Shown piece after piece: positions 508-59,185 of a DNA stretch of 64,000 nucleotides. Position 1 is the first letter of the stretch, and every line of letters starts with the position of its first letter. Position numbers and translations under genes: made by a program. Below the pieces are notes generated by a model. It ran no database searches. It was not told where the DNA came from and was given only the letters and a program-made list of their open reading frames with translations. Origin of the DNA: Cavenderia fasciculata (taxonomy: Eukaryota > Evosea > Eumycetozoa > Acytosteliales > Cavenderiaceae); the NCBI RefSeq assembly GCF_000203815.1, contig NW_004457737.1, positions 1,798,001-1,862,000 of the forward strand, read 5' to 3'.

Positions 508-2238
508 ATGGAGACATTATTATTTTTTAATGTTTTCAAGAATCAATTTCTAAGATTTAAATTATTTAAATCAGTTCACGATATTTCAATAATTGAATAC
601 AACTCTTTTGATTATACAGAGAGTAATCGAATCCAACTCAACCCATTCTCATTCAACAACAACTATTACTTTGCCAATGAAAAGCACCAAGAAGTCAGGA
701 GACTGGATTTTATCAAGGGTAGAGACTTGATCAAGCAGCACAGTAGTAATAATAATAATGATCAACGATCATTGGAATTGATTGGAAAATATGCAATGCC
801 ATGGTCATTTATCAAACATTATCTACCATCAAAGGACCGTTTCGACAGCACTACAAGGGAGAAGGCAATCAAGCGATACTGCACCCATCCCAATGCAACA
901 CTTGGTTGTTTGAGACGGTTGTTGGACTGGTCGCCAGACATTAACGCCGACGCAGAGTTGTTGGCTGATGTTGCCAAGGCTGGACACTTGGATATCCTCA
1001 TGTTTTTACAGGGTCGGTTCCAAGGAATCGAAGTGTCACCCAAAGCAATGGATATTACTGCTTTTCACGGCCATTTGCATATACTAGAGTATTTGCATTC
1101 GAGTGACAATGATTGCACGAAAAATGCAATGGATTGGGCTGCTTTTAATGGTCATTTGGATTGCGTTGCTTTTTTGCATTTCAATCGAACCGAGGGCTGC
1201 AGTCAGCTGGCTCTAGAGTACGCAGCGATCAACGGACACTTGTCCGTAGTGGAATTCCTCGACAAGAACCGTACTGAAGGATGCAACTACGTAAACTCAA
1301 TGGACTATGCAGCAAGCAACGGTCATTTGCCAATCGTCGACTACCTCAACCACAACCGCAGTGAAGGGTGCACTGTGCAAGCCATGGATGGGGCCAGCAA
1401 AAATAACCATATGGATGTAGTCGAATACCTCCATTTCAATCGTACAGAGGGGTGCTCAATAAACGCCTTGGATTCGGCTGCGGAAGGAGGCCATATTGAA
1501 ATAGTATCATTCCTAAATGACCATCGCACAGAAGGGTGTAGTATCCGAGCCATTGATTATACTGCAAGGGTCGGACACCTTTTAATCATCCAATTCCTAT
1601 CTCAACATCGTACAGAAGGATGTACAACCTATGCCATGGATTGGGTAAGTAGTAAAGTAATCCAAAAGTATACAACACAATATGTGAGAAGTCAAAACAA
1701 CTGTGCTGGGTTTTTCGCAACGAGTTTTGATTTTTAACATATGTAACATTACAATCAATCAACCATTCTAACAATCAGAATTCTCTATCTTTATCTATTT
1801 ATTTAGGCATCTGAAGGAGGATATTTACCAATTGTAGAATACTTACATTTCAATAGAAATGAAGGATGTACTCACAATGCTCTAGATAATGCGTCTAAAT
1901 ATGGATTCCTTCCAATTGTCATTTTCTTGAATGAGCATCGAACAGAGGGAGCTACGGTACAGGCTATGGACGAGGCCAGTGCAAACGGCCACATCGAGGT
2001 GGTTCAATACCTTAAAAGATACCGTCATGAGGGGTGTACAGAGAAAGCTATGACCATGGCCGCTCAAAACGGACATCTTCCAGTCGTCAAATTCCTGAGA
2101 GAGGAACTAGTCCAAGAAATATTTGACCTTGAAGCTGCTATCCGTGCAGCAAATCAAAATGGTCACCAATCAATCGTTCATTATCTCCAACATGACATTG
2201 AACAAGATCTTGATGAAGAACAACCCAATATCTGGTAG
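508..2238 (+). CDS. Ankyrin-like repeat protein ('RTEGC' repeats)
   Basis: Two exons, 508-1644 and 1807-2238, joined in phase 0 by a GTAAGT...TTTAG intron, give 522 aa. From about residue 165 onward the protein is a tandem array of roughly eleven 33-34 aa units with the core RTEGCTxxAMDxAAxNGHL followed by IVxFL, a divergent ankyrin-type helix-turn-helix repeat that is greatly expanded in some dictyostelids. The first ~150 residues are not repetitive and resemble the F-box-like N-terminus of relatives, but no motif is clear. The intron falls inside a repeat, and both exons continue the array without a break. A protein-binding scaffold role is inferred; the partner is unknown. The intron carries a short inverted-repeat element (1681-1741), annotated separately. 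Confidence 0.85.
1681..1741 (+). mobile_element. Short terminal-inverted-repeat element, intronic copy 1
   Basis: A 61-bp element inside the intron of the ankyrin-like gene. It begins TATGTGAGAAGTCAAAAC and ends with the complement of TATGTTAAAAATCAAAAC, so the ends are imperfect inverted repeats (about 15 of 18 positions) with TA at each boundary, as expected for a TA target-site duplication of a Tc1/mariner-type MITE. The same sequence recurs at 58668-58772 with an extra ~45 bp in the middle. This copy therefore looks internally deleted. Confidence 0.6.
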
Positions 2239-2495
2239 CTAGTAACTTAACCTATACCTATCTACCCTCCACGTGCCTAACCAACATCCAATAACATATA
2301 ATAATAATTTAATACTAATACCAATCAACCAACCAACCAGCCACTTTTACTTCACTCTTGAAAATATATTTTAATCAAATCAAATAAATAATAGTACTAA
2401 CTAGTTTAACCTATGTTTGATGAATAATGGGATATGCTGAAATAAAGTTTAATAAAATTAATTGTTCTTGATCCTTGATATCTATTATTGTTAAT

Positions 2496-5400
2496 TTATT
2501 GTTTCTCTGCAGCATCTTCAAGTTTTGCAATGAGCTGAATCATGGTAGGTCTCTTTTTGGGATTATGGCTTAGACACTCTTTGATGAGTGATGTAATAAA
2601 GTGATTGGTGCCACTTGGAAGCTTGGGCTTTAGTTTCTTTTCATAGACAGTCTTTACTAGATCGACGATTGTTTGAATTTCGGGGTAAGGTTCGCTGGCT
2701 GTGACCATTTCATAGAGCATCATACCAAAGCTGTACACATCGGCGGCCGAAGTATAGAGATCACCTGCCAAACATTCGGGTGCCTCCCATTTGGGTGTAC
2801 CAGCGACTGCAGTCATATTGAGCTGAGTGACACGACTGAGACCAAAGTCACCGACCTTGGCATTGTCATACTTGTCAATGAGAATGTTGGCTGCCTTGAT
2901 ATCACGATGAATAATATCGATCGAATGAAGATAGGCCAAGCCCTTGGCAACCGAAACAGCGTATTTAATGACCAATTGGAGTGACAATGGGTGGTTCTTT
3001 TTAACGACGTCCCACAGTGTACCCTTGTGCATGATTTCAGTGACAATCATAAAGATAGAGTCTACTGATCTTGGAATAATACAAGCACCCTCTAATTTTA
3101 GCAGATTGGGGTGTTGGATGAGACCCATGATGGCAACCTCTTTTAAAAAGTCTTCCAATCTAAAGGTAAATGACACCTCACTAAATATCTTGATGGCAAC
3201 CTCTTTTCCATTCCACAATCCCCTATTCACACGAGCCAATGCACCAGCTCCCAAAAATTCTCCAATCACCAAATCAGATTCTTCAATCTTTATATGTGAA
3301 AATACTGCTCCATGTTTACAAATCTCTAAAATGTGTGATAATGATCCCTTATTTTTTAATTCTACAAGATTTTCATCTAAATTTAAAAAATAAATGGAAA
3401 TGGTAAATAAATAAATAAAGTTTCTTTTGTTTTTTTTCTTTTACATACAAGAATACTTTGCCAAATAAATTAAAATTTGAGCAGATTGAATTCTTAAACT
3501 TTCAGCACTTGGTCTATTTGCTTTTGTACAATTATTACTCTTGTCCAACATTTCAATAAAGTTTTGTAGTGGAAACAAATCTGAAAATTCCCTTTTTGAT
3601 TGAGTCGATAGACTTGGATAAATATTTGTCAAAAACAAACAAAAGTTTGGTGAAAATGTATAAGCATCATCCTTTAAAGATATATCCATAAATATTTTAA
3701 GATTATCTTTATATTGTTGGAATAATTCATCTTTTTCTTTGTCTAAAAAAAAATAAATTAAAATTAGTAAAAATAAATATTTATGAATATTTTTTTTCTT
3801 TTGATTTGTTTTTGATACAATACAAATTTTTGATAATTGAGCAATTGATTTAAATACTTCGGTTCTATAAGATTTAAATTGACAACAAACAGCACTTTTA
3901 AGTAAAATATTAACCAAATGTTGAGTTGATTCATCTGACTTGTCCTTTAAATTTGATCTAGTCTCTGCTAGAATGCTACCAAGAAAAGTTACCAACAACT
4001 CATCTCCACAAGATGATAATAGTATAATATGTTGATAGTTTCCATGAATGATTTCCTTTGAAATCTTGTGTAATGGTGATAATATAATAACACTATCCTC
4101 TTGACTTGTTGTTGTTGTTGTATTTCCTGATTGATTAGCACCATTTGGTTCAGTAGTAGAAGTAGAAGAAGAGGAAGAAGAAGAAGATGATAAAGAAGTG
4201 GGCGTAGGTGTGACAGAAGAAGAAGAAGAAGAGGTAGAAGGTTCAGATGTATAATTTCTTTTACCAAGAACCATACCCATAAACCCATTAAGGAATGATG
4301 TTGAAGTGGGTTGTTGTTGAACCAATTGTTGTAAACTTTGTTGTTGTTGTTGTGATAATTGTTGTGGTGATGAACTAATCGATAATTGATTAACTGATTT
4401 TAATAATGAAAATATATTATTATTTTGTTCTAAAAATGATTTTATAGAATCTGATATATCTAAAATAATTAAATCAAAAAGGTTAATAAATTATATTCCT
4501 TTTCTTTATCTTTTTCTTTTTTCTATTTTTTTACCTTTATCAATTTGAATAGTAATATTTGTTGTAATTGATTGAATTTTCATAACAATATTATGAACAT
4601 GTTTAATAAAACGAACGATATAATCTTTTGGTAAAAGATTAAAGTTTTCCGATTGTTTGATTCGATTGATAAATTGAACGGCAAGAGTGAGACGTCCAAT
4701 GGTGATTCTAACAAGATGACGATATAAAAGAATAAATAGTTTGTCAAAGGTTCGCATGGTTTGATCAAATAGTTCCACTTCTTTTTCCTGAGAGACGATA
4801 AAGTTTTCAATCTCTTGATCCTTTGTCTTTAGATAATCGCTATAGGATGACTTTGATCGTGTTGCTCCAATTTTGATTGGTTCCACCTCTTGGTTACTGA
4901 TACCCTTACTTTCTTTGAATAGATTGATCTTGGTGAGCATGATTTGTTTGATAACACCAATATTCTTTGACACCTTTTTCAATAGATCGACCGACGACTC
5001 AAGGGCATTTGGAATAAAGTCAAATGTCTCTTTAAATAGGTAGAATATGTACTCTAGTACAATTGGATCGAGTAGTGCAAGTGATAGATCAACAAAATTG
5101 GATTGCTTATTGTTTGATTGAATGTCATAGTATTTGTTGATATTATCAATTGTCGATTGCTTTTGGAATTGATTCTTTAGATTATTGGCAATTGGTTGTT
5201 GTTGTTTTAATTGATTTTGAATAGAATTGACATTATTTGAATTGGTTTTTGATAATGATGGTTGTTGTTGTTGTTGTTGTTGCAATTGTTGTTTTAATTG
5301 TTGTTGTTGTTGTTGATTGGTTCTAACTCCAGTGGTTGTTGATGATAAACTACTTGGTTGTTTTTGTAGGATTGGTGGTGTACCTCCTCCACTTGCAGCA

Positions 5401-7337
5401 GCAGATCTTGGTGTTGTAGCTGTAGATGATAAATTACTGGAAGATGTAGATGAAATTCCATTACTACCATTTAAAGCTGTTCTAGGTGACATTTGTCGAT
5501 TTAGATTGATTTTGGAGAGTAATAGGATAAACTGCTCCTGGATTTGTTTGAAGCGTTTGGTGAGGTTGTAAGTCTCGAATGGTTTTTCTTTTTAAATACA
5601 GATACTATGTCACAGATATGATGTACAAGGAATACAGGAATGTTGTCGAAATTGTCGATTGCCTTTGTGAAATGTTTGAGTGTGGCGATGATTGGCTCGA
5701 CAACGTGCTTGGAATTGGCTGCATCCTCAATGTCGAGCTCGAGTGAGAAGGGTAGTAGCTTGTACAACTCGTTCTCTTCTGGTGTCGGGATGATCGAATG
5801 AGCTTGACCTTGACCCTGACCCTGATGAGCTGCCGCTGCTTCTGGTTCGAGCATAACATTATTCTTGGTGAGTGGATCGGTCAACAACTTGAACACCATC
5901 TTTTCAACAATGGTAGATTGCATTACGAGTGTTGAGAGTGTGACAAACGAACCAGACTCTAAATCAGGTACGACAATCATAAAATTAGATGGAGTGTATC
6001 CATTATCACTACCGCTGCCTGGTAAATCCGATGCTCTACTAATCAATGGCAACTCCCAAATCGAAATGAATCGAAGCAGTGTAACGAAAAACTTGTCCTC
6101 TTGTTCCAACCGATTCTTTAAATATCTCGAAGTGACCACTCCAAAAGCTTGCTTCAAACTTCCGTTTCCATTGGCGTTTGATTGGATCGATGAAGAAACA
6201 CTTGGTGACGAAATAGATGACGACAGACCCGACGACACTGACGAAGCAGTCGATGAAGATGATGTCAAAAACTCGCCAACCTTGTTTGGTGATCGAATCA
6301 TTGGACGTCTCAAATCGTTGTTATCGTCCTCATTGGGATGAAGGTTCTGAGCTGTCGTACCGTTGGTGAATGTAGTAGTACTCGCACTTCCCAAGTATGG
6401 CTTGGCAATTGGGAAATCATCAAACGTCCCTACAACCACTTTCCAATCATCCAACATTCTCTTTAACTCATCATTTTGTGGTAATGTACCTGTTGCCAAA
6501 CTACTTGACATTGATTGTGGTGATTGTGGTGGTAGAGGTTGTGATTGTGATTGTTGTTGTTGTTGTCTTGGTGATTTTTGTGGTGGTGATGAAGGTAATT
6601 GTTGTGTTTGCAGTTGATTAGATTTATCGATACTTGAATCTATCAATTTCAATAGTTGATTTTCATTGTTATAGTATCGAATGGCTACACCATTTCTCCA
6701 AAACTCTTCTTGAACTGTTTTGTTTTTTGCAAAGTGAAATGATCCGATACCATTTGCTCGACTACTCGCCCATTTACCTTGGTAATAGTCACGTGTCGAC
6801 AAATACTCTGGCGTCTGTACCTTGACAATGACAGAATCAACCAATGTAAACGATTGGTTGGTCTTGCTCTTTGTCTGATAGTTTTGGTTTCCAGGACCAT
6901 TAATAATGACTTGATTCTCGAGTGACCCTGTTGTCTTGAACCCTACGTCTTTGTTGGCCGATATAACGGCGGTGGGAGGGATGATACTCGATAGTTCTTG
7001 GAATGTCTTGTATCCATCATTGACTATCAATATGCCATCACCACACTTTTGGTCATTCTTCCACTCTCCGACATAGGTACAGGTTGGATGCAAGAATACA
7101 CCTTCACCTTCCTTGTACATTGAATCATCTATTTTACCTTGATAGAATCCATAATTTGAATGAATCTAAAATGTAGATATTTAATGAACAAAAGCAGCAA
7201 CAGCTGATTATTAATAAATAGTATGGTGTGTGTTGTCGACATGAAAGAGGATGAATACATACACTAGCCTTTTCATTATTTGATTTAATGATAACATCAT
7301 ATGAATACGATGGTGGTCTAATAACATCAAAATCCAT
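2496..7337 (-). CDS. MORN-repeat protein with C-terminal TKL-type kinase domain
   Basis: Five exons (7337-7263, 7165-4535, 4459-3824, 3742-3449, 3376-2496) join in frame with GT..AG introns to about 1505 aa, provided one base is added in the A5 run (plus-strand T5 at 5589-5593). Without it the frame stops at about 5501, although excellent coding sequence resumes immediately in the next frame. Domains: MORN-like units at about residues 30-70 (YxGEWKND) and again around 135-170 (YYQGKW); a Gln/Ser-rich middle; a helical segment (~900-1210); then a protein kinase domain from about 1248 to the end. The kinase has the Gly loop GAGALARV, VAIK lysine, HRDIKAAN, DFG and an APE motif, so it should be active. 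Closest in type to tyrosine-kinase-like Ser/Thr kinases. MORN repeats often bind phospholipid, so membrane-linked signalling is inferred. Confidence 0.8.
5586..5595 (-). other. Frame break in an A-run of the MORN-kinase gene
   Basis: On the coding strand the run of five A (plus-strand T 5589-5593) separates two strongly coding frames: ...HICDIVSVFK upstream and KEKPFETYNLTKRF... downstream. Adding one A restores a continuous frame. No GT..AG pair of usable size spans the break, so an intron is unlikely. Most likely a sequencing or assembly indel; a true mutation cannot be excluded. Confidence 0.65.
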
Positions 7338-8638
7338 CTTGACCTATAGTTTAAACTTACTATCTATCTTTTTATAGATAGGGTATAGTTGTTGTTACCA
7401 ATAATTATTGTTGTGTAAAGATTGTTTTGTGTCAACTAAATCAAAAGGTTTATAATATCTTGAATTAATAAACTAGTATATATATATAGTCGTTGTACAA
7501 TGATTGAGATTGATTGATTGATCTTTTGCAGCTATAATAATAATTGATTGGTTTGCTTGTGACTTCTTCTGATATCTGATGATAATAATATGTTTTGGTG
7601 AAGAGATGTTATATAATAATAAATAATATAATAATACAATGAAGATGAATATACTACAGTAGATTGATAGATAGGATAGAGATACTTGTTTACACAGTTA
7701 TCAAAAGAAATATCAAAGGTAGGATTTTTCAACAAGCTTGTTGTTTATTCTTTTGATGATGAATTCTTTTAAAATTTTTGATTAATCCAAACTCCGCACA
7801 TAATATATTATATGTGTGGGTGGGGATGTCCTAGCTAGGAATAGCGAAACGTCACCCCATACTACAATGTACTATACTACTACTCATCAATCATTGAATA
7901 TTCCCAAATAGCTGCTATTATTTAAATATAGCAATTTAATTGATTGATTGATATATCTTACCTTTTTGTAATTAAGTTCTTTTTGTTTTTTTTCTCTCTA
8001 TAGATCTATCTATCTATCTTGATAATAATTATATAGGTTTGAAATAAAGTGATGAATATTATTTGTTTTGATTGAAAAGAAAAGAGAACTGGACTGACTG
8101 ATTGAAACAAAAAGGGGTGGGTTCAAGATAGAGACATACAGACAGACAGACAGACAGATAGACACGCCAACACATTTAAAATGTGATCAATCGTAACAGC
8201 AAAAATGGTAACCATCATCCTATATTGGTGGTTCTGGTATATCCATTTAACAACAACAACCATCATACACATCATAGGGAGCAAAGGAAAAATGGAGGGA
8301 AAACGTGTTGATGATGATTGATTGATTGTAGTTGTGGTGTTGGAGAGAGGTAGTGTGTGTGGTTGGTTGTAAAATAAACCATCATCATCATCATCAACAA
8401 TGGTGGTGTAGGTGATCGATTGTCGTGTAGCAGACAACTTCACTATAGGTGTGAAGGTGGAATTTATTCATTGTTTAGGTTGGTTGATCCTCCTGCAGAA
8501 AGCAAACCCACCAACACCACCAAGTTTAGGGTTGAGGTGTCAGAGTTTTCTTGTTCATTGCTGCACTAAACTAACTCTTACTTGTTGGTTGGTATTAAAA
8601 TACAATACAATATATTATATTATATTATACTTTTAGTT
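7338..8638. other. Intergenic, between two minus-strand genes
   Basis: About 1.3 kb with no credible protein gene; short frames at 7532-7735 and 8123-8443 (-) are low-complexity and lack homology. It holds the promoter of the MORN-kinase gene, a TA run near 7470-7490, a (GACA)n tract at about 8137-8160 and ATC/CAT triplet repeats near 8380-8400. Around 7805-7855 there is a G/C-richer patch with the 12-bp palindrome TCCTAGCTAGGA; a small structured RNA is possible but unsupported. Confidence 0.5.
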
Positions 8639-9734
8639 TTAATAATGATCTTTATAACGTCTATCATAATTCATATTTGGATTAAATAATAATCTTCCAA
8701 AATCTTGAAGTGGAGAACAAGCAGCTACGAGGAGATCATAGTTTAAGCTAAACCCTCCATTGTAGGGATTTCCATAGGACAGTTGATTGAGGATTGATGG
8801 ATCCAAGGGTACCTGTTCTCTATTGATCCTACTTTTCAATCTTTTTTCAATTTCGATTGGGTCGTTTAATCTTTGTGATCCACTTGCAACTAGCCATCCA
8901 TTTAAAAGCACCCAAAAGAGTTGAGCTTCTCCAGTGACGGGATCGATCATAGCCAAACTATCAGATGTTGGGATACCTTGATCAGATTGGATGATCTCGT
9001 TTTGAATGACGACCATATTGACACCAAATCTCTCTCTCACTGCCGACGAGATTTGATTAGGACTTGCAAACATTTTCATCACATCATCTTCTTGCAACAA
9101 TTTTGCTATTTGATGTGGATTCAATGTTAAAATAGTGCCATCCTTTAATAGACACCCATTTCCACTAAAGGGTGCGTAGTCTGTTGATCCTCCAAAGTTG
9201 ATGCACGCCTTTTCAGCCCAAAACGGTGATTTCTCGATATGGTTTAGACACTCTATCACCAATCTTTTACAACTATCTAGAATCTCTGACATGTCGTTGT
9301 ACAGAGTACTCGTTGAAACGAATATTTTGGTAGAGTTGCATAGTTTTCTTGAAACTCCCCATGTAGTGGTGATGGTCGATTGCTGCACCACCTCGAATAC
9401 CTTGTCAAAGATACCAACCAACATGATATGGTATACCGACGGATCAATTGAATACGCAAGATTGTATCCAGCATCTGCCGTGTAATGTTCGGTTGGATGA
9501 CCAGGATAATGGGTGTAACAGGCAACCGTTGTCAATGTAGGTGAATGAACCTCCATAAACGAGTCTTTTACGAGGTACTGGTAGACAAACGATTCCAACG
9601 ATGCTTTTAATCTAACCGTTGCCTGATGTAATGGTAATCGATTACAAAATGTTTCTGCCACTGGATACAAAGATGAAGCTGGTACCATTGGATACCAAAA
9701 TACATTCTTGTCTTTTTGATTTTTTTGGTCTGTA

Positions 9735-9774
<40 letters not shown>

Positions 9775-10536
9775 CTTTTACTACTACAACTGCTCCTCCA
9801 CTATTATCATATAGTTTCTCGTCTCGATGAAGAATATGTCTATATCCATTGTCATGGTCAAGGGGAGGATAGGAAATAGCGATTGAATTGTGATTTCGGT
9901 AAACACTCGGGTTGGTTGGTTGAGAAACCACTTTGAATGCAATGACTTTAAGCTCCAACGATCGGTTTGTTAGAGGATTGATACGAAGATGACCACCTGG
10001 TGGACTAGCCTCTACCATAGCTTGTATCTCTACCAATGACTCTGGTAGTAATTTTGACCAAATCTTTAATGTCTGTTGATCAATATAACAATTTGATGAT
10101 TTAGCAATACAATCTAATATCTCTTTAAGTAAATACCGATTCTTGAATACAAAAGTAAATAACTTTGTTGAATATTCATTGTGTATTGGTGTTGGTCCCA
10201 ATGGAAGATATAATTCGTTTGTTGTTGTTTCAATAGGACCACTACCACTAGCAGCAATATGATCTTTATATATATTGAATGCTTTTGTTTGATTGAGTAG
10301 TTGAGATTGAATGGTTGAATAGATTGGTGATGATGGATCTCTAAGTATACTGAGTGTCAATTTACCCAATGATCTTGTTGATTGTATTCTAGCACGTGTA
10401 ACTATAACTCTACCAAGATGCAATGATTCATCTAATCGATGAATTGGTACAAATGAATCCCATTTTGGTGTGATTGATGATCTTTCACTTGGGTATTTCT
10501 TGGTTGTATAATTTTTAAATGGTGATAATACTATAA

Positions 10537-10606
<70 letters not shown>

Positions 10607-10612
10607 TGACAT
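8639..10612 (-). CDS. Class IIb aminoacyl-tRNA synthetase-like protein, catalytic motifs degenerate
   Basis: One uninterrupted frame of 657 aa starting after a 22-codon poly-Asn run. Residues ~55-110 look like the OB-fold anticodon-binding domain of Asp/Asn/Lys-tRNA synthetases (LGRVIVTRARI). The C-terminal half follows the AspRS/AsnRS catalytic core: a motif 1-like segment (DSFMEVHSPTLT), a motif 2 region where the usual FRxE is replaced by FEVVQQSTITTT, and a motif 3-like end GGFSLNYDLLVAA where the ATP-binding arginine of GxGxxR is Leu. It ends in FNPN instead of FPR. The fold looks preserved while the residues that activate the amino acid are lost, so this is probably not a working synthetase. 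A regulatory role or an amidation-type activity, as in AsnA-like paralogues, is possible. A second poly-Asn run splits the linker. Confidence 0.7.
10536..10607. repeat. (TTA/AAT)n tract encoding poly-Asn
   Basis: About 23 tandem triplets coding for the Asn run at the start of the synthetase-like protein (minus strand). A second, shorter tract at about 9737-9772 encodes another Asn run in the same gene. Similar tracts occur at 42361-42410 in FIG4 and elsewhere; they are typical of dictyostelid coding sequence and prone to length change. Confidence 0.85.
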
Positions 10613-10864
10613 ATTTACTATTACAATGTTTATGTTATGACTCTCTTGTATGTCTATTCATATTCTAACACTCCACTCCTTTCTTTACATCATGTGACGA
10701 ACGACTTGACTTGACCTACTCCAAAAGATATCCAAAACGTGCATGAACCCATGGGTTTACAAAAAATCAGTAAAAAACAAGAAATAATAACTTTAGGTTA
10801 ATATTTATTTATTTTCTTTTCTTTTTAATATATATAATAAATATATATATATATTATATTTATA

Positions 10865-47086: not shown

Positions 47087-50000
47087 TTAACCTCTATGTG
47101 AAGAAATCATTGATCTTCTATCAAATAGATCATTCTTTTTAAAGACGAATCTATCGATTTTATCTTCTGCTTCAAGAAGAATTTCATCATCATCGAGGAC
47201 ACGTTCCAAACCGTCTCTGACAATATGTAGCGAGTATTCTGCTTCTTCTTCACCTGTCACCTTCATCTTTTTAACTACCATCTGTCTAACCTTTCCACAA
47301 AGAGTATCATATCCAATAGCAAATGAACAGAATAATACATCTCCAAATCCTTCAAGACAAATTCTAACTACCACCTTGCCACGATTTTCTTCTGGTTGAG
47401 GTGTTTGTTCTGATTGTTGTTGTGATTGTTGTAAATTATTATTATTATTATTATTATTATTATTTTGACTACGAGGTGAACCTGGAGGTGAAGGCATTAA
47501 TTCACTCAATTCTTTCAAATTGGATGTTGATTTGGTCGATGATTTGGTTTCTTTTTCATTTTCTCTTGATATATTAGCTCCATCCATTTCATCATCTTGT
47601 TGTTCATATTTTTCATCATCTACATATTCCAATTCTTGTTGTTTTTTCTCTGATTCATCTGATGATTCATTTTCATCCGATTCATCTGATTTATCCTTTT
47701 GATTTTGATTTTCATTTGGTTTAAATGATAAAGATGACATTGGATTTGATAATTCTTCATCCAATTTATCAAATATATTCATAATGGAAGCTCTTTCATT
47801 GATTAATTTGTTGTTGTTTGAGCCAAGAGATCTTGCATCACGTCTTTGACGTTCTTGTTCCTCTTCTTGTCTGAGTTGTTCCAATTCCTCTTCCTCTTCT
47901 TCCAATAAACGTCGTCTGTCATCTTCTTCTCTTTGTTCTTGTTGGAGTTCTCGGAGACGTATTTGATTGTCAATGTCTTCTTGGGCCTGTCTGAGCTCTT
48001 CGTCTTGGTGCTCCTGTTGGGATTCTCATTTGCTCCCATTCGTCTTGTTCTGCTTGAGCACGGCGCATCTCGTCCAACTCCCATTGCACATCGTCGTCTT
48101 GTTGTTCTCTCTGCTCGCGCTCTCTCAGTTCTCTTAAGCGCTCCTCTTGCTCGAGACGCTCCAATTCCTGGCGTTCTTCTTGTTCCTTCTTTTCGCGCTC
48201 GATCTTTTCTCGCTTGTCTCGCTCTTCTTGGTCCTTTTGTTCACGTTGCTTGCGGAGTCGCTCGCGTTGGTCCTCTTCGGCCTTGGTCTTGTCCTTTTGC
48301 ACCTGAGCGACGCGGTTCTGGCGCTCGCGCTCTGCGTCGGCACGTTTCTTGTCGTCGTCGGCCTTTCGGGCCTCGGCGTCACGCATGACACGCACGCGGT
48401 CTGCTTCCTCGCGCTTCTTTCTCTCTTCGTCGTCGCGACGTGTCTTTTCGACAAGTTCGCGTTTCTTGCGTGCCTCTTCCTCGATTTGCTCGCGCTTGAG
48501 TTTGTCCTCTTCGTCCTTTTCGCGCATAGCCTTGAGTTGCTTGTCACGTGCGCTCATCATATTCTCTGGTTGGATCGGTTGTTTGGCAGAGACACATCCG
48601 CGATAGATCGCTGCCTTGTCGCCGTCCTGTCCCGACAACAAGTAATAAAAGCACGACAAGTAGATCATGTAAGAGCGCTCGTCCATCGAGTCCTCGTCCC
48701 ACGCCGACGCCTTGAGAATCTTGGGGATCTGCTTGGCATTAAACGCAGCGTCTAGCACAGTCTGTGCCTGCTGGGTCTTGCTCTTTTGGCCGGCCACTGA
48801 CTGATAGTCGATCGCGCCAGGACTGCATTTACTCAACAACGCAGCAAACACCAATGGATTCGACAGGCCCGACGGACCATCGACCACCAACGCCTTACTA
48901 ACCTCTCCAACTCTTGCATTACACCAACCAATTAATTTATCTTTTACAACATATTCTTTTTCTAAAAATTAAATTAAACCAAATAAATCAAAATAACATT
49001 AATATTAAAAAATCCATCTATTTTCTTTTCCCCTTTTTTTTCCTTTCCCTTTTTACAACATACCACCATTTGAAATAAAAGCAATAAATATTGACCAAAT
49101 AACACGATGAATTATCTTTGCTACTTTACATTCTACGATATCTTGGGATAGTAGTTTACCAAAATCAGCTCCAACTTGTTGTAGAGCTTCGAGGACTGCA
49201 TCGATATTGTATTGCATTTCATAGACTGATTTTCCTTTTCTATATTTCAAGGTACGACCAAACAACTCTTCAATGAGATTGATGAGGACGAGACCGTCGC
49301 TGTAGACACTGAGAATGTCACCGCCATTGGACGACAAACCACGACCAGAGACAAGGTAGTCGGTCCAAGCCACATAAGCAGCGCTTTGAGTCTCGGAACA
49401 CTCCAACTTGGCATTGAGTTTTCTTGCATTGAGGTCACGACTAGTTGGCACAAATGCCATGGCTGGAGTGGCAGTACGTGTGGTTTGAACGGCCGTGTAG
49501 GCAGTAGTTGCTTGTAATTCAGTAGCCCATGCTTGCAAATCACCTTCCTTTTCAGCGGCCAATGTGTGACGCTCGCTATTAGACGTTGTCACAACAATAA
49601 ACGAACCCAATTGGCTAACCTTTAGTTCAATGACTGCATTCTCCAACGACAACTCTATGATGGGTGTATCCTCTTGTTCGTTGTGATAGAAACTAATATA
49701 TTTGTCTTTGGAGATGGCCCATACCTTGTCAAACTTGTTTGCCTTTTTTCTTAGTAGAAATCCACTCATTCCCTTGGTTGGTTTGATGGTATTGATATTT
49801 GGTTGGGGTGGTTCTCTAACTGGAGCAGATGTTGATTGTTTTCCTGGTTGAGGTGGTTCACGTGCAGGAGCACCAGTTCCAGCACGTCCACCAGTTGCAG
49901 CACTTGTCAATTGACTTGCCATCTTGTCTTGGAAACTCATAAATTCACCCTTTGAATTTAGGAAATAAAACTTGTAATCCTTCTTTTCATTTTTAATTAT

Positions 50001-50110
50001 ATAATCAAATGGGAAATCTGTCATTTTTAATGATTGTTTTACTAAAAGTAAAACAAAATAAAATATAAAATAAAAGAAAATGAATTAATTAATATTAATC
50101 AAATATTAAA

Positions 50111-50145
<35 letters not shown>

Positions 50146-50333
50146 TTTCTTTACATACCTCCACCTTCAAAAAAGAATAAACCAAATTGTTCCATATCAC
50201 CTTCCTTCATGAAATACTTTTTACCAAGTTTCTCACATACCTCTCCGGCAGGTGTACGTGATTCAACTGCCATGGATTTATACAATCCATCCTTATCATA
50301 TACTTTTAATACTTTTTTAATGATTGGTTCCAT
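47087..50333 (-). CDS. RA-PH-CH-CH-coiled coil-RA protein
   Basis: Exons 50333-50159, 50041-49064 and 48961-47087 give about 1008 aa if one base is dropped from a C3 run (plus-strand G 48019-48021). Domains in order: a Ras-association (RA) beta-grasp at ~5-100 (IIKKVLKVYDKDGLYKSM), a PH domain at ~149-242 (GFLLRKKANKFDKVWAISK ... QAWATEL), two calponin-homology domains at ~281-387 and ~388-500 forming an actinin/filamin-type actin-binding pair, a long charged coiled coil (~520-740), an acidic low-complexity stretch, and a second RA-like domain at the end (VVVRICLEGFGDVLFCSF to RFVFKKND). The RA-PH pair resembles that of RIAM/Grb7-type Ras or Rap effectors. A role in connecting Ras/Rap GTPases and phosphoinositides to actin is inferred. 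Confidence 0.8.
48019..48021 (-). other. Frame break in the RA-PH-CH gene
   Basis: The coiled-coil frame reads ...EQDEWEQMRI and then runs to a stop as PTGAPRRRAQTG. Removing one C from the CCC run gives ...MRIQQEHQDEELRQAQEDI, a seamless coiled coil that continues to the acidic tail and second RA domain. Exon 3 then has the exact length needed by its splice phase. An assembly indel is most likely. Confidence 0.7.
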
Positions 50334-51493
50334 TCTTTCTTTTTTTTTGTTAAATATCTATAGAACTATCTTTGTGTCTAAATAGATCAAAGATATATGA
50401 TTGATATATAATATATGTGTGGGTTGTGTATAGGTGTGTAACAATGATTCACAGCACAAAGTGTGTGTGCTTATTCTAAATATACAACTGTCTCTATCTA
50501 TATTATTATTGTCTATCAATTCTATTATTATTATTGTTATTGTATAAAGGTGCAATTGTTATCTATATATCTATCTATCTATCTATCTGTATCTATTAGC
50601 TCTACTATCTATCTATTATCTGTTTAGAGAGAGAAACGAAATTGAACCGAAAAGAAAAGTCGTAATTAGTAAACAGGAAGCAATGGTTGGATGTGTTGTG
50701 TTTGGTGAATTCCCTTCTTTTCGGAGGGTGTGATCGCACAATCGTCGTCGGATGTTGGGGGTGGTTGATTGATGGTTTTCGCCCCTCCTCTCCTAATCGA
50801 CGATTCCATTCCCACGCACACCTCCCCAATACATTGATGATCTTTTTCAAACTTTAAAACCTACGTGTTATGTGTGTATCTGTCTCTCTCCCTCTTGTCT
50901 GTTGCTCTTTCTATCTATCTCTTTTTTTTTAATCCTAATTTCTGTTTACTGGTAGTAGTTAGTATCTTGATTGTTTGTGTTATTAATGATGAATCTAAAC
51001 AAGAGCCTAGATTTGCTGGCAAAAAAACCCAAATTAACAACAATAAAAATCTTTCCCCAACTGCTGCAAAAGGTGTTTCTTTTTCTCTTTATGCTACATA
51101 CTGCTACACTTTATTCTGAGCTCGAAATTGTTTTCACGTCGTTCAATGTCGTAAGCAAAGGTCGTACGTGCGCGATCTTATCGATAAGATAGTTGATACA
51201 AAATTAAGGTGCAAAGTTATATACTTTAGTTCTTTTTGCAAATATATTGACTGTTGATATAAATAAATAAAAAGACAAATGACAAAGAAATCAGAGGGGG
51301 GCTAAACGGCTTATCACTTCTATTATTGTTATTCAACTCCAAAGGCGATTGTTGTAAAAACCTCCCCACAAAATTGCCATCGGAGAAAAAGGTTAAAATA
51401 TCTATTTTTTTTTTTGTCATTCAATTAATTGTTTTATTTACAAGCGGGATGGTTTAGGGTGATCCTTTATTACCCTTACTACTACTATTGCTA
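50334..51493. other. Intergenic, 1.16 kb
   Basis: Promoter of the RA-PH-CH gene and 3' flank of CAP-G. Includes (TTTC)n repeats just inside the first intron (50113-50147), (TATC)n at about 50570-50590 and a mixed-composition patch at about 51115-51195 with the palindrome TCTTATCGATAAGA. Frames at 50605, 50865, 50971 and 51226 are short and not gene-like. Confidence 0.5.
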
Positions 51494-54400
51494 CTAATAG
51501 AAATGAACTGGAGGTGGAGTGTAACCCGAGGAATGGAATCTGACTCTCTTTGTTGGTTGTTTAATTGCCGTTGTGGCGTTGGTAGTGGCAGTTTCCAACA
51601 TGTCATGTTGATCACGTTTCTTGAGGATGGATCTAACAGTCTTTTTTGATGGTTTGTCAATAGATTGTTGGAATTCGGATGCTCCTCTAAATTTAAATGG
51701 TCCCCAATTTTTGAATTCTTCATCGTCCGATTCTTGTGAACTCACGGTCTTTTGTTGTTGTTGTTGTTGTTGTGATGGTATATTATTGAGGCGTTGGTGT
51801 TTGGGACTATTATTATTATTATTATTTACATTTAATTTTGAAGATAGTATTTGACGAACACTTATTTGTTCATCATCACCACCAAATCCACCATTATTAT
51901 GGTCATTGATAGATTGACTAATACCATTACCATTTTTGTTGTTGTTGTTGTTTGATTGTTGTGATTTAATTGGAGTAAATGTTGTTTCAACAATTGGTTT
52001 TTCATTTTGTTGATGTTCATAGGTCTTGTTGATGGTTTCTACAGTATCAAATAACTTCTTTTGATTTTGAAAGAATGCTTTCAAACTACTTGGATCGTAC
52101 TTTGCCTTTTTGTTAATGTCATAATTGACACGACCCTTTTTATCAACTACCACATCTCCATCGCCTTGACTACCGCAAGTGTCGGTCGAACCACCAAACA
52201 TATCCTTTTTAGGTTTCTTTGCAGAGGAGGATGGAGTTGAGGGAGACTTTGTTGTCTTGGTTGGTGTTTTCAATCCCCCCTTGACTGGAGTTTTCTTTGT
52301 TGGAGTTGTTGTTGTTGTTGATTTGTTATTTTGAGGAAACCCAACAATATTCTCATACTGTGTGCCATATTCTTCCTTTACATGTACGTGTTTCGAAGTG
52401 TTTGTAGCACTTGTTGGTTCTGAATCATTGATTCCACTGAAATCGAGTGTGTCTGGGTCTCTGTTGGTACCACTCTTGATCAATGCACGCACCGACTCTT
52501 GGAACTGGGTGATGTGGGGGTCGACAAAGAGGACGGTCAGCTTGTCGAGCATTTGGTAGATCTTGGCCAAATGGGTTTGATGTTGGAACTTGTCAAAACG
52601 GAGAAGGGGGAGTACCTTGGTGAGCTCTTTGGTCTCACCTCTAAAACATGATATCAGTTCCTGACAGATTTGGATGGCTATCTGTGGATGGATGTCCTCC
52701 ACCTTGAATGTTTCGACTTGCGACACTGTCATTTGTGACGATTGCACAATGAGATCAGAGGTACGTCGCGACAAGCTGCTGATGGTGGTCTTGACCTGAG
52801 CGGCGTTTTTGCATGGCTTGTCAAACAAGTACAAAAGGAATTTGGTGAGGTCAATCAAATTGATCAGCGCATAATTCGATCCCTTGACCGACTGTACGAC
52901 CGATTTTAAAATAGGCAACGTACTATTAAACAATAGAATCTTGTTTTCCAATGAATCGGCAACATATGCTTGGAAAAATAAATATAAACATTTTCTCAAC
53001 TCTAATAAATCTTTTGTTGCTGGTGACATTAATTCTAAAAATAAAAATATTAATATCTAAAATAAATAGAAATAGAGTTAATAAATAGTTTGATTTAGTT
53101 TTTCTTATTATTATTATTTTTTTTTTTTACCTTTTGATCTTGAACAATACCAGAATATAATAATTTAACAAAACCTTCAATACAAATAATTTTTGTTTCA
53201 TCATTGGTTGAAACTTGTGAATATTTTCGAATCATTTTGTAAAGTGGTACAGTTTCTTTTGGAATGGTTTTGGGTGATCCAAATACCAATATAATATCAA
53301 ATACAACCCTTAAACAAGCTAGTTGAATTTCAGGTGTATCAGTTTCTAAAATCTTTTCAAATAAATTTAAATAATTTAATGCTGCATTCTATAAAAATAA
53401 ATAATTAATTGTTAATATATGATTTCTAGTTTCTTTTTGTTTCTTTTTACTTACACGTCTATGTAAACAAAAAATACCAAGATTTTGAACACCTAATTTA
53501 CGTAGATTTGGTAGTGGATGTTGAATACTTGGTAGAATGACCAATTGCAAGAGACCATCGATTTCTGGTGAATTTGAGAATTTCTTTGCATTGAGCAATA
53601 GGTAATGAGTAATGATGGAGCATTTTAAAATGGCTTGTGTTTTACTACTTTGAATGATTTGTTTGAGTTGATTGATTTGAGTTTGAATGGTTTGCCATTC
53701 CTTTTTGTTTTTGATACTTTTCTTGTCAATCGCTTCCAACTCTTCCAATTTGGTAATGTTTGGATCGACTTCTAATGGGTCAAGTAGATCAGATAGCAAC
53801 TCTACCATTTGCAATATAAAAGTTCTTTCTATTCCAATAACCAATGAAAGACAAGATAGAGTTTGTTTGATGAGTTGAAATTCTTTTTCAGCCGATGATT
53901 CGTCCACACCTTGGCATTTAACAACTCGTAATATTTGTAGTAGAAATACTTCCATATTTGTACGACCGACTTCGTCACCAAAGTCCAAGCTTTGCAAAGC
54001 TTCTAGTAGTTGTCCAAGCACATAAAACTCTCCTAAATGTGCAAGCAATATATCACGATATTCGGTGAGTGTTGGTAGTAGCTCGTCCAATCGCTCCATC
54101 AATAAGTATTTTGAGGCATTTGGTACGGACACCGAGGTCAAATGGTGTACTGTCAACTTGTGGTGGAATGCCTGTTCGTTGGTAATGTCTTTTCGGCAGA
54201 GTCGTAGGGCGAAATCATCCAAACCAGCCTTTTCATAGACTGCCAATAACGATCGTTCGAGGAATGGCCCATTCTCGACGACATCGATCTTTTCGAGATA
54301 GATGTATAGGTAGTGATTGGGATTCTCTGATTTGAGTTTGTTGAGCCAACTAGTGAGAAGATCGAGTGAAGCTTCTTTGACCTTTGGTTCAGGGTCGTTT

Positions 54401-55459
54401 AATCCTTGACTGATCACTTCAATAATTTGTTCGCTTGTAAAGTCATCCATCTTGTACCATTTGCTTAGGATGTTGTAGGCTGTCGATCTGACCTCTAGTT
54501 TAATGTCTTTGGTACGACGAATAACATGTTGAATCAAATCCAATGTATCAAATTTAACAGCCACTGCAAAGGGAACAATCTGCTTGAGCAACGTGTTTCT
54601 AATATTCCAAACTGAATCACTGTCCATCATTTCGAGCACTTCTTCAAAGTAGGACTGATCCTTTTTGTTCATATAGTATTTAACCGTTACATTGACTGCA
54701 GACAACCGAATATTCACATTTTTATCTATACATCTTGTATCCAATATTGATTTTATATCCATATAATTTGATTTTTTATCAATATCAAATAATCTAAAAA
54801 AGAAAAACAAAAGTAAACAAGTTAGAGAGAGTGAGGGAGAAGGAGAGAGATAGAGATTATATAATCTTTACATACTCTGTTTTAGTATCAGGATCTGATA
54901 ATATATTATTTAATAATTGAAGTGATCTATGTCTAACTACAGTTTCTTTGGAATCCAATACAGTATATAGAAATGATAAAACTGCATCCTTAGATTGTCT
55001 CTTTTTTTGTTTAATCAATTCAATGTTTTTGTTATTATTATTATTATTATTATTAGCAGTATTATTATTTGTTGTTGTTGATTGTGAAGATGTTGATATA
55101 GAAGAAGATGATGAATTATAAAGATAAACTAAATATTTTGATATAAATCTGCAAGTTGCAGTTGTTTTTGAATCTTTTGAACTTGGACAACAGAGATATA
55201 GTTTGATTGGATAGATAAATGATTCTGCAAATTCATTTGCATCTCTTGATCGCATCAAAGCTTTATCCAATTGAATAAACGATGATGTAAACGTTGATTT
55301 CAATCCCAGTTCTGATGCTTCTCCAACTGTCTCTTTGAATATTTCACATATCGTTTTTAATGTTTGATTCTGATTATTACTATTACTATTGTTATTGTTA
55401 TTACTTGTTGTTTGTTGTGATGTTAGTGATTTTCTTGCCATTTCTTTATGTATGTACAA
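51494..55459 (-). CDS. ncapg: Condensin subunit CAP-G (Cnd3)
   Basis: Four exons (55459-54876, 54793-53455, 53388-53131, 53056-51494) give 1247 aa. CAP-G is a HEAT-repeat subunit of condensin I, which compacts mitotic chromosomes. The N-terminal pattern matches NCAPG (TICEIFKETVGEA..., FIYPIKLYLCC), the HEAT repeats run through about residue 700 (VNIRLSAVNVTVKYYM, EVRSTAYNILSKWY, PEPKVKEASLDLLTSWL), and GFVKLLYSGIVQDQKIL followed by PATKDLLELRKCLYLFF aligns with human GLAKLMFSGRL...RLRHCLGVFF. The tail is disordered and Lys/Ser/Gln-rich with an SQESDDEEF acidic motif that may be phosphorylated. The human match fixes the acceptor of exon 4 at 53057, not the later AG. A second in-frame ATG at 55441 (MARKSLTS) could be the true start. 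Confidence 0.9.
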
Positions 55460-55864
55460 AGCAAGAGAGATAGATATCTATATATTTCGATAATATTAAA
55501 ATGTTCATAATGAACACCCCTCCTCAATGAGCAATACCAAAACCTTCGAAGTTCTTAGAATTCACACTTTTTTCAAATTTTTGAACTCCGAGTTTGGAGT
55601 TTATTTTTTTTATATTCGACTCGAAAAAATCTAACTTGATGAACATGTTGATGGTCTTTGAAATCGGTCAGTCACCCTTAGATACGAGTTAGGTTGAGTG
55701 AGAGATAGTAAAGAGAGGGATGTAGAATCGGTCAGTCACCCTAGGTGACACAAGCTATATAACAGAGCTGCTCTCACCATGTGAATTCATTCAACCAAGC
55801 ACACCTCCTCTACCTCTACCTACCTCCTACCTATCTTCACAACAAAGTTATTATTATCTCTTTC
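55460..55864. other. Divergent promoter region with a direct repeat
   Basis: About 405 bp between CAP-G (-) and the F-box-like gene (+). The 17-bp sequence AATCGGTCAGTCACCCT occurs twice in direct orientation, at 55662-55678 and 55726-55742, 64 bp apart and 120-200 bp upstream of the plus-strand start. A TATA-like GCTATATAAC lies at about 55752. These are good candidates for promoter elements of the F-box-like gene. Confidence 0.5.
55662..55742 (+). promoter_or_regulatory. Pair of 17-bp direct repeats, likely regulatory
   Basis: Two identical copies of AATCGGTCAGTCACCCT (55662-55678 and 55726-55742) upstream of the F-box-like gene, in the same orientation. The sequence is far less AT-rich than its surroundings. 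Paired binding sites for a transcription factor are the natural reading; the factor is unknown. Confidence 0.45.
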
Positions 55865-57436
55865 ATGTCAACTACTACTACTTCAATTGCACTACCACCT
55901 TCATGCTTACTACCACTGGTCTTTAGTACTACTGACTCATTATTTGGCTATTTGTCTGTTGCTGTCTCTGCTGCCTCTGCCTCTGCCTCTGCCTCCCAGT
56001 CTCTGTCTGTCTGTTTTGATCCGTCTTCGTTGAGTTATTATCCTTATAGCTATCCCGACTGTGCTGGCCGCCAAGACCTACTCGTCTCTCCTACTACTGT
56101 TACTAGAGTAGTGGAAGAAGAGGAAGAGTATGATCACGAAGTAATGGGTGCTGATAATGATAATGACGGTTCCATCGGCATGGCTATCGACACCAATATC
56201 TATTTAGTGCCTAGTATCTATGAATCTGAATCAGGAGCAGGGCCATCGTCACCATTGTCACCAATGTCCCCAGGCTTGGTTAGATGTAGTTCCTTTTGTA
56301 ATGGAAATCGTCGGTTGGAGTGTGTCCACTGTGCCCATTTAGAGTTGGGTTGTTCTCTGCTGACTCCTTGTGTCTCTCTGTCCAAGCAAGAGTCATTACC
56401 ATTGCCATTCTCTGATCTAGATGATGTGTTGGATAATGATATTGTTGTAGTCGTCAAACAACCAAACAACCCGGCCAAGTCAGGGTTCGAGTCAGAGTCA
56501 GAGTCAAAGGTGACACTACCAAAGTTTTGTTTGAGTATTATTCTCAAACATCTCTGGGATTCAATGTCTGACGAACCTCTCTACACCAAGTTATCAGTGC
56601 TGCCATACGTGAGCCATTACTTTTTCGCATGTGTCAAGTCTCTTAACTGTAACCTCAAGCTGACACTGACCAACCAATGTTGCCAAAGATTGATGCGTTG
56701 TTTCACTGGCCGTCCACAATACACCCGTTCTCAACTCACTATTCTAAAGGACAGAGTAATGACCAACAACAATAATAATAGTAGTACCGAGCAAGACAAC
56801 AGTAACAACTCAACAACGGTTGGAAGATGGAATTTAATCAATTCTATTTCATCAATTACATTGGTACAAGATGGTAGTACTAGTTGTATTGGTAGTGTTG
56901 AAAGTTTGTTTGTGTGTCCACCGTTCCGTAGGATGATTGATATGTCGCTCGAGGATATCAATACCACCGATCAGAGTGTCCACAATCTGGTTAGTGCCAT
57001 TCCCACCATCAAGTCATGCACAGTTACCTGTTATCTCGACCAGATCCCACGATTCTCTACACATTTTGATCGAGTATCTGCACACCTGGTAGTACAAGTC
57101 GCCCAAAAGAGAAGGAGAGTGTCATCGGTCGTACCACAATCGTTGATTGACAGTTTCAATCATGTTGCTCGTATTCATATACGATTCTCTTATTCACCCG
57201 ACCACTCGAGCAACCATTCACACGAAGCAGCCTATGAGTTTGTATTGCAACTCATCAAAGCCAATCATGCCTCCACCGAAATTCACCTGGAATTGGATAT
57301 CGTCCAAGGAAACACCGACGATGAACAATCATCATCATTGTACAACGATAAAAAAGATAAAAAGATACAAACATTACGTAGAACATTATCTAATCGTAAA
57401 CATCTTTTAAATCATACCATTTCAATAAATAATTAA
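55865..57436 (+). CDS. F-box-like protein with low-complexity N-terminus
   Basis: Single exon, 523 aa from the ATG at 55865; an upstream GTG-opened extension has no ATG and is unlikely. Residues 1-200 are Ser-, Ala- and acid-rich, with a Cys-containing stretch (CSSFCNGNRRLECVHCAHLELGC) that might bind metal. Residues ~215-265 resemble an F-box (LPKFCLSIILKHLW ... VSHYFFACVKSL). After an Asn/Ser insert, the C-terminal half has scattered leucine/valine strands (SVESLFVCPPF, KSCTVTCYL, EIHLELDIV) like degenerate LRR-type F-box proteins. It has the same overall plan as the protein at 13313. Substrate recruitment to an SCF ubiquitin ligase is inferred. Confidence 0.65.
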   Translation: MSTTTTSIALPPSCLLPLVFSTTDSLFGYLSVAVSAASASASASQSLSVCFDPSSLSYYPYSYPDCAGRQDLLVSPTTVTRVVEEEEEYDHEVMGADNDNDGSIGMAIDTNIYLVPSIYESESGAGPSSPLSPMSPGLVRCSSFCNGNRRLECVHCAHLELGCSLLTPCVSLSKQESLPLPFSDLDDVLDNDIVVVVKQPNNPAKSGFESESESKVTLPKFCLSIILKHLWDSMSDEPLYTKLSVLPYVSHYFFACVKSLNCNLKLTLTNQCCQRLMRCFTGRPQYTRSQLTILKDRVMTNNNNNSSTEQDNSNNSTTVGRWNLINSISSITLVQDGSTSCIGSVESLFVCPPFRRMIDMSLEDINTTDQSVHNLVSAIPTIKSCTVTCYLDQIPRFSTHFDRVSAHLVVQVAQKRRRVSSVVPQSLIDSFNHVARIHIRFSYSPDHSSNHSHEAAYEFVLQLIKANHASTEIHLELDIVQGNTDDEQSSSLYNDKKDKKIQTLRRTLSNRKHLLNHTISINN

Positions 57437-57580
57437 AATTAAATAATTAAATAAATAAAATGTATTAATAAAATCGGATGAATCATCAAAAAATCAATAT
57501 TATTAATATTACTTTTGAACTCATAATTTTAGAGTACTTACTATTTTTGTATATATATATATATATTTATTTTGATTATC

Positions 57581-57968
57581 ATGGTAAGTTATATATATAT
57601 AAGAAGAGAAGAGAAGAAAAGATAGATGAGTTTGAATCTAACAATCAATCATGTTGTTCATCTATTTATTTATAGTCAGCAATCTTTAATTTTCAAAGTT
57701 TACTAGTGGTAATATTACTCTTTATCTGTACATGTACTTATATTAGAGCTTCATATCCAAAGCTATTAGAAGTTAGAAATAAACATAGGTATGTTGATTG
57801 ATTGATTGTTTGTTTGTTACCAATAACACAATACAATACTAATCAATGAATGATTTCATATATAGTATATCAGGGTTACCTTGGAAAGCAGCAAGAATAG
57901 GTGAAAGATTAAGTCCTTGGGTTTCAGCATCATGTATAATAATGGGAGCAGTTCTTTTATTTTGGTAG
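57581..57968 (+). CDS. kish: Kish (TMEM167) small secretory-pathway membrane protein
   Basis: Three exons (57581-57583, 57676-57788, 57866-57968) give 72 aa, the same length as human TMEM167A. The protein reads [21 protein letters not shown], then [17 protein letters not shown], then [20 protein letters not shown] and a second hydrophobic helix ending in FW. This matches the family along its whole length: [10 protein letters not shown], CTCxYIR, the WKxARIGER motif and two transmembrane helices. Kish proteins act in the early secretory pathway at the Golgi. The first coding exon is the ATG alone, ended by GTAAGT, so the gene is invisible to a plain reading-frame scan. Family identity is very secure. 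Confidence 0.95.
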
Positions 57969-58358
57969 ATTTCTTTGTACTTTGAATAGAAAGAAATATT
58001 GGTATCAATCGATCTATAGATCACTAGTGTAGTGATACAAAAAGAAAGTTTAATAAAAAAAATTTAATAATATATCAAAGGGAAGAGTTCGAAGACACAT
58101 TATAATTCTAATATATTAATACATCAACATTTCTCTCATCACAAATTTTAGTAAACGTAAAGTGATTAACATCTATCAGTGATTCATTTCAAGACATCAC
58201 CTCCATCAAGAACCTCGCTTTAATTTATTATAATATTTGTTGTATACATTTTAATTATAAATCACACTCATTCTATAGTCTTTAATCCCATCTAGTCTAT
58301 TTTCATTGTCATTTATACATTCATTCATTTATTCATTAATTACTATCAATTTTTTGGA
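57969..58358. other. Intergenic, about 390 bp
   Basis: AT-rich 3' flank of Kish and promoter of the beta-grasp gene at 58359. A minus-strand frame at 57839-58024 lies over Kish and is spurious. No other feature is visible. Confidence 0.55.
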
Positions 58359-59185
58359 ATGGCTGATCATGTTGCAGCTGTTCGTCGAAATATGACTCTT
58401 TTAGTTCACTATGGTTCTGATGTCACCGAGATTGAATTTATAAATGTTGGTACATATGACCACCTCCGTCAGGTCATTGCAAGAGATCCAGTGCTCAACA
58501 TTCCCTCTGGCAGGATACTACTCTTTTTGGCACCCCAATCCATTGACACCAGTTATGTTCGAGTCCTTCCGTTGTCTCCAATCCCTCTCCCCAACCCTAC
58601 GGACATTTATGTACAAGTTGAAGAACAAAGTATGTATTAAGTTAATGCTCCAATATAATACCAAGTATATGTGAGAAGTCAAAACAACTGCGCTGGGTTT
58701 TTCGCAAAACTCATATAAATTTGTGAGAGACTGCAAAATTCTCTCACACAGAGTGTTTTGATTTTTAACATATTAATAACTATTTTTTTCTATAGCACCT
58801 GAGATTAGAATATATTCAACAGATTTGTCTGTCCTTAATCGTGAATTTATGATAGAAATAGGAGTGAAAGAAAGACTTAAAAGCTTTGGGGAGCCCACAA
58901 ATCAAGAGAGGGTCCGGATGCGTCTGGACTCGGAAAGTGATCTTGACCATCATCCAAACACCCACTGTTCCTGGAGACTATGTCGTGGTCGTCGGACCAA
59001 AAACAAAGTTTACAGTCAATTATTCATTGACCACTTTTCCATTTAACATTTGGACAACATCTGCAGAATTTGAAATTCCAGTTTTAGGGGATGAAGCAAA
59101 TTGGAAAAAGTATATTATTATTATAATGATATCGTTATCATGTAGAGAAGGTTCTTTAGTGTGTCCAATATATCCTAGAGAATAA
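58359..59185 (+). CDS. Beta-grasp (PB1-like) protein, paralogue of the zinc-cluster protein
   Basis: Exon 1 (58359-58629) encodes 90 residues of a ubiquitin-like or PB1-like domain (RNMTLLVHYGSDVTEIEF, then TDIYVQVEEQ). It is clearly related to residues ~49-131 of the protein at 32713-34065: shared VHY, D-T-I-F-NV, PL and DIYV positions. Exon 2 begins at 58796. In the spliced frame it continues PEIRIYSTDLSVLNREFM and stops at 59046. However, from about 58886 the next frame carries a better-looking protein (KVILTIIQTPTVPGDYVVVV ... FPFNIWTTSAEFEIPVL) to 59185. A one-base indel between about 58868 and 58945 is probable, so the C-terminus is uncertain. The second part looks like a beta-sandwich, but I do not recognise it. 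The intron holds an inverted-repeat element. Confidence 0.55.
58668..58772 (+). mobile_element. Short terminal-inverted-repeat element, intronic copy 2
   Basis: A 105-bp element in the first intron of the beta-grasp gene, starting 38 nt after the splice donor. Ends are TATGTGAGAAGTCAAAAC and the complement of TATGTTAAAAATCAAAAC, again with TA at both boundaries. Inside it the 8-bp arms TGTGAGAG and CTCTCACA can pair, so the whole element folds into a long hairpin. Compared with the copy at 1681-1741 the outer ~40 bp on the left and ~20 bp on the right are nearly identical; this copy keeps the centre. No coding capacity: a MITE-like non-autonomous element. Confidence 0.6.

Follow-up and report, generated by a model that had tools for sequence, protein, structure and literature searches.

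MITEs are short, non-coding sequences that have inverted ends and target-site duplications, share their ends with a larger element and are often abundant. Three Sola2 elements of D. fasciculatum (DFa-1, -2 and -3) are described as having 4-bp AWWT duplications, ends of 12-13 bp and an 888-aa transposase, and as carrying Fanzor1 (PMC3627910). Introners are described as bringing their own splice sites or as using ones in the duplication or the adjoining exon (PMC9860276), and the tRNA-gene targeting that we found published for dictyostelids concerns retrotransposons (PMC5006619, PMC5911963). Here we examine a window (the whole stretch of DNA analysed, 64,000 nt from Cavenderia fasciculata, with 34.9 % G+C and part of a 31.0-Mb genome in 21 contigs) containing two copies of a short repeat. 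These copies are very probably short non-autonomous MITEs cut out and inserted by a Sola2-type transposase, the introns around them not having been made by the MITEs.

The original prediction had placed one MITE-like element in introns of two genes, and both sequences are found there, with 98 % identity over their left 40 bp and the same right end. Their bounds, with those of the duplications and of the predicted host introns, are as follows.

1645..1806, + strand: intron of an ankyrin-repeat gene with the short copy, predicted from GTAAGT...TTTAG borders and the joined frame
1680..1683, no strand: left target-site duplication ATAT of the short copy, from flank comparison
1684..1738, + strand: family-A Sola2-type MITE, internally deleted, 55 bp, from sequence and genome matches
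1739..1742, no strand: right target-site duplication ATAT of the short copy, from flank comparison
58630..58795, + strand: intron of a small multigene-family gene with the full copy, predicted from GTATGT...TATAG borders and the joined frame, with element-free introns nearby in paralogues
58667..58670, no strand: left target-site duplication ATAT of the full copy, from flank comparison
58671..58769, + strand: family-A Sola2-type MITE, full-length, 99 bp, from sequence and genome matches
58770..58773, no strand: right target-site duplication ATAT of the full copy, from flank comparison

Both elements are read as lying inside canonical GT...AG introns, predicted from their borders and the joining of frames. 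The first intron would be 162 nt long, or 103 nt minus the element and one duplication, and the second 166 nt, or 63 nt by the same subtraction. Ankyrin Pfam matches occur on both exons around the first intron; this gene family is very large: one 110-aa query found at least 192 matches, and C4 and C12 contain many of those listed. The 58-kb gene gave 10 matched stretches genome-wide, two of them its own exons. As had been proposed, the copy at 1684-1738 is internally deleted with respect to the 58-kb copy (55 bp vs 99 bp) and the ends are imperfect inverted repeats, but the TA thought to flank them is the inner part of the 4-bp duplication ATAT.

A genome search with the window repeat yielded matches much stronger than chance would give (best non-self E = 4e-45). 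In total, 21 loci in two families, designated A and B, were found, and the element is not confined to two introns. Family A comprises 14 matched stretches, read as 12 loci including both window copies, with two stretches each at C13:623k and C15:350k. The former has an internal deletion leaving 68 bp, different from the deletion in the short window copy; the latter consists of two halves in opposite orientation and is read as a copy split by an inversion, with the break near element position 55. Family B comprises nine loci, from six matched stretches and three fragments taken from end-pattern lists and scored against a real family B copy (C13:252k, 23 bp; C2:283k, 38 + 21 bp; and C8:411k, 17 bp, weak). 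The total becomes 20 without C15:384k, which has 17 bp of right flank in common with C15:350k and was counted as derived from the same copy. The length is 99 bp in family A (58-kb copy) and 93-101 bp in the two-ended copies of family B. The two families are related in their interiors as well as their ends: the best local score between interiors is 21.0, whereas shuffles average 7.5 and none of 500 is as good.

The 18-base left-end pattern, with up to three mismatches, gave 56 hits vs 59 in the reversed control, and the right-end pattern 370 vs 296, a slight excess; since the end patterns were not enriched, or only slightly so, we counted only sites with further likeness. A gapped end pattern returned 20 rows, and none in the control: 14 were known A or B copies (those of B on both strands) and six, from four places, were AT-rich, had no further likeness and were discarded. 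Also discarded were the TATGTTGGAACTCAAAAC sites on C13 and C18, situated in apparent coding sequence common to the loci, and an end-like site on C10 with no further likeness. We found no description of either family in the open-licence literature.

With the ends of the elements set at GTG...AAC or GTG...CAC, exact 4-bp duplications (ATAT, AATT, ATTT, AAAT or TTAT) border 10 of the 12 two-ended sites, the exceptions being C14:716k (ATAT/ATAC) and the rearranged C15:384k; additionally, ATTT is present at both halves of the split copy C15:350k. The duplications are mostly AWWT, with departures in TTAT at C3:1845k and in ATAC on one side of C14:716k. A reading with 2-bp duplications was dropped once the ends of a longer element appeared, and 4 bp is favoured over 2 bp with fixed T...A ends because C3:1845k (TTAT/TTAT) has another outer base on both sides. 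The repeats are short and non-coding, with terminal inverted repeats and a target duplication of fixed length, as in MITEs.

End-like sites reading GTGAAAAGTCAAAAA on C7, C9 and C18 open the same sequence, a longer element of 4,489 bp that on C18 (462822-467310) is flanked by ATTT/ATTT and on C19 (160856-156368) by AAAT/AAAT. The C7 copy has AAAT and AGAT flanks, and the C9 copy, with AGAT on its left, runs off the contig end; AGAT on these two contigs is a further departure from AWWT. The copies from C7, C18 and C19 diverge exactly after ...GTTCGCAC, where equal length predicts; the interior was seen whole on C18, whereas for C7 and C19 the part examined comprised the ends plus a 187-aa match. 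The terminal repeats, GTGAAAAGTCAAAAA / GTGCGAACTCAATCT, are short and imperfect, agreeing by eye at 9 of 15 positions. Comparison of C7:1-1479, C9:1-1213 and C19:160856 also showed that the left flank of the C7 copy is common with that of the C19 copy, that its right duplication, AGAT, is the left one of the C9 copy, and that both contigs, C7 and C9, begin near the element; seemingly, from these AGAT duplications, flanks were exchanged by recombination or the assembly is misjoined.

The minus strand of the longer element contains ORFs of 408, 242 and 237 aa. Canonical splice sites allow these and a short initial exon to be joined into a model of 929 residues with no stops, although its start codon is uncertain. 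This gene model is read as a transposase, and a 187-aa part of the protein occurs three times with 99 % identity. The model contains the stretches DFKQN, SDNGPTFKN and SHGKSDCD, which we tentatively take to be motifs of Sola2-type DDE transposases. The four ORFs matched no Pfam family at E≤1, and a scan of viral contigs with the 242-aa part found no relative; given the Pfam result, the name Sola2 rests on the published description and on these motifs. We call the elements Sola2-type because AWWT duplications are those described for Sola2 of D. fasciculatum (PMC3627910), and we infer that the protein of the longer element belongs to this family and that the element is autonomous.

Of the 15 terminal positions of the MITEs, the two ends of family A agree with the left end of the longer element at 13 and 12, and those of family B at 13 and 14, a likeness that none of 20,000 shuffles equalled for three of the ends and that 0.03 % (at most 6 of 20,000) equalled for the fourth. 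The likeness to its right end is weaker (8-10 of 15), and beyond the termini the comparison of the MITEs with the end regions of the longer element gave, one borderline score excepted, nothing above the best of 300 shuffles. The MITE-like nature originally proposed is supported by the inverted ends and target duplications, by copies that are dispersed and in part internally deleted, and by a longer element with similar ends. Plausibly, a Sola2-type transposase from the longer element, or from an unseen relative, would recognise the common ends, excise the MITE and reinsert it at a staggered 4-bp cut, and intronic copies would be tolerated, since they are lost along with the intron on splicing.

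The parent initially suggested was a Tc1/mariner-like element with the same ends, which would make the repeats Tc1/mariner-type MITEs with TA duplications, as the presence of TA on both sides at some sites and of one DDE_3 locus in the genome might suggest. However, this sole DDE_3 locus found, at C15:268201, has unlike 25-bp inverted ends, TCCCAAAATAAATATTTGGACACCC, and the duplications at other sites are AATT, AAAT and ATTT; as the TA at the borders belongs to a 4-bp duplication, Tc1/mariner is the wrong family, and we consider such an origin scarcely conceivable. Alternatively, the repeats could be a gene family for structured non-coding RNAs, with some members in introns as for snoRNAs, that was spread by retroposition. 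The sense strand of the 58-kb copy certainly folds well (z -5.1), with mismatches of the end stem closed by G-U pairs, but inverted-repeat DNA is expected to fold and the other strand has a z of -4.1. Rfam gave no match at an element (six loci at E≤1 and eleven loci at the gathering cut-off), and the fixed 4-bp duplications, the broken copies and inverted ends like those of the longer element make an RNA-gene family extremely unlikely, leaving Sola2-type MITEs as our preferred reading.

Several other structures were noted during these searches. The DDE_3 locus (L072:786-2325, C15:268k) is a lone Tc1/mariner-type element; its 25-bp inverted ends are perfect, and its transposase lies in two overlapping frames. 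A 3.7-kb inverted pair of end-like sites (C21:2644967/2648686) was considered as a parent and rejected, being an inverted duplication of gene fragments; this duplication (L071:349-4304, C21:2644848-2648803) spans nearly 4 kb, with arms up to 99 % complementary, and one of its ORFs is, judging by eye, presumably a piece of a cytochrome P450. On C3, around 1 kb from a family-B copy, there is a match to the U4 spliceosomal RNA (L037:424-552, minus strand) of 42.9 bits, the Rfam cut-off being 46.

From their splice sites and frames, both window copies, C14:368k and C7:1675k are read as intronic, four in all; for the last of these, the upstream ORFs of the host gene match Vps52. A codon-usage profile was uninformative for placing copies in genes. 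In the window, 35 and 37 nt separate the donor from the duplication, nearly as originally noted (36-38 nt), but this spacing is not a rule, since it is 13 nt at C7:1675k and 69 or 65 nt at C14:368k, where 65 corresponds to a donor better suited to the frame. In all four copies the splice sites lie outside the duplications. The reported loose likeness between the starts of the two window introns is weak: past the 6-nt donor they align with a score of 6.0, which 1 % of composition shuffles equal, but when other intron starts of the same genome were compared in 10 pairs, three of the pairs scored higher (7.0-9.5).

These introns had also been suggested to arise as introners do, with the element, or a larger unit including the surrounding intron, entering exons and making both introns. 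The similar donor distances in the window and the loosely alike intron starts fit this suggestion, as do the many ankyrin matches, among those listed of the 192, that run through without an intron, although ankyrin repeats can align in any register. Against intron creation, donor and duplication are 13, 35, 37 and 65 or 69 nt apart in the four copies, so that the donors are not contained in the duplication, and neither element nor duplication supplies them. Additionally, seven other loci paralogous to the 58-kb gene were read by eye, and five of them (L081, L082, L084, L085 and L086) have an intron lacking the element at this position or close to it; in L083 the intron is further on and in L087 none was seen, whereas the match to L088 stops short and was left outside the count. 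Finally, some copies are exonic and bring in-frame stops. The family-B copy C12:813k cuts a coding exon, and 136 of 148 matched stretches, one of them its own half, cross the junction in one piece, in favour of a true insertion there. The copy C3:1845k lies inside a poly-asparagine tract and adds 105 nt with in-frame stops, the frame continuing in the same phase beyond. No splice pair both canonical and frame-restoring was seen by eye in these two copies, although a weak GTGAAA donor and a downstream TTAG would keep the frame at C3:1845k. Stop-bearing copies in exons speak against an element that makes introns, even if the donor at the edge of the C3 copy is usable in principle, and we regard the introner origin of the two introns as very unlikely. 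Insertion of a MITE into an existing intron is supported by the paralogues for the 58-kb gene, and for the ankyrin gene is suggested by splice sites outside the element. The story of intron creation gives way to a more ordinary one, of small transposons surviving in introns, hidden by splicing. Regarding orientation, the four intronic copies have that of their genes and the two exonic ones the opposite, numbers too small to mean much; the opposite strand of family B carries an acceptor-like stretch, TTTTTCAG.

A tRNA gene was identified with ARAGORN within ca. 210 bp of 4 of the 20 MITE sites: the MITEs at C14:716k, C14:646k and C15:350k are 67, 81 and 207 bp upstream of the tRNA gene, and that at C12:1033k is 174 bp downstream, with distances taken from the duplication or the truncated end and with C19:166k scanned over 451 bp only. 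At C15:350k, where the neighbour is a tRNA-Val gene, a duplicate of its 5′ part also adjoins the element, at ca. 35-40 bp. The duplicated piece (L015:1264-1329 and 1437-1503) is of ca. 66 bp, with 96 % identity, contains the first part of the gene plus its upstream flank, and ends exactly at the MITE duplication. A control scan covered 39 loci including three element sites (L017, L025 and L034), and the other 36 hold one tRNA gene; genome-wide there were 1670 candidates, of which 63 were scored. For D. fasciculatum, 198 tRNA genes are reported in 31 Mb with 66.2 % A+T (PMC4334915). With 198 genes, the binomial probability of at least 4 of 20 sites within 250 bp is 8e-7 for the whole genome and 4e-4 if one fifth of it is insertable, and with 400 genes 1e-5 and 0.006, respectively, figures that are only guides because both the idea and the 250-bp limit were set after seeing the data. 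The proximity was unexpected and is post hoc, yet a chance origin is unlikely; it would be explained equally well if the MITEs favoured DNA that is open or AT-rich. No tRNA gene appeared in the short flanks seen of the three 4.5-kb copies. That Sola2-type MITEs, from a cut-and-paste lineage, prefer the flanks of tRNA genes as dictyostelid retrotransposons do is a tentative idea that we hold possible but rather improbable. If true, a DNA transposon, too, would have a safe harbour in the neighbourhoods of tRNA genes, and confirmation would extend to DNA transposons a well-known dictyostelid pattern.

Families A and B are best read as two low-copy MITE families of Sola2 type. Neither was found described in the open-licence literature, and both are tied in a compact protist genome to a longer, 4.5-kb partner with an open gene, a pairing that is testable. 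Unlike MITEs that are often abundant, they are low in copy number (21 loci found). They resemble the DFa Sola2 elements, which presumably belong to the same species, by their published description (PMC3627910) in the 4-bp AWWT duplications and the short imperfect terminal inverted repeats, and the 929 aa of the longer-element model are similar in size to the described 888-aa transposase; as differences, the MITEs have no coding capacity and, whereas DFa elements are described as carrying Fanzor1, no ORF of Fanzor size was seen beside the transposase exons in the listed part of the 4,489-bp element. Introners are described as short, often DNA-transposon-like and present in introns (PMC9860276); both families here are short, DNA-transposon-like and have intronic copies, but the donors are a property of the host intron, 13-69 nt away. 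Lastly, 4 of 20 sites near tRNA genes recall the tRNA-gene-associated TRE5, TRE3, Skipper-2 and DGLT-A, although these are, in the published account, retrotransposons at characteristic distances (PMC5006619), and the possible association of the MITEs is partial.
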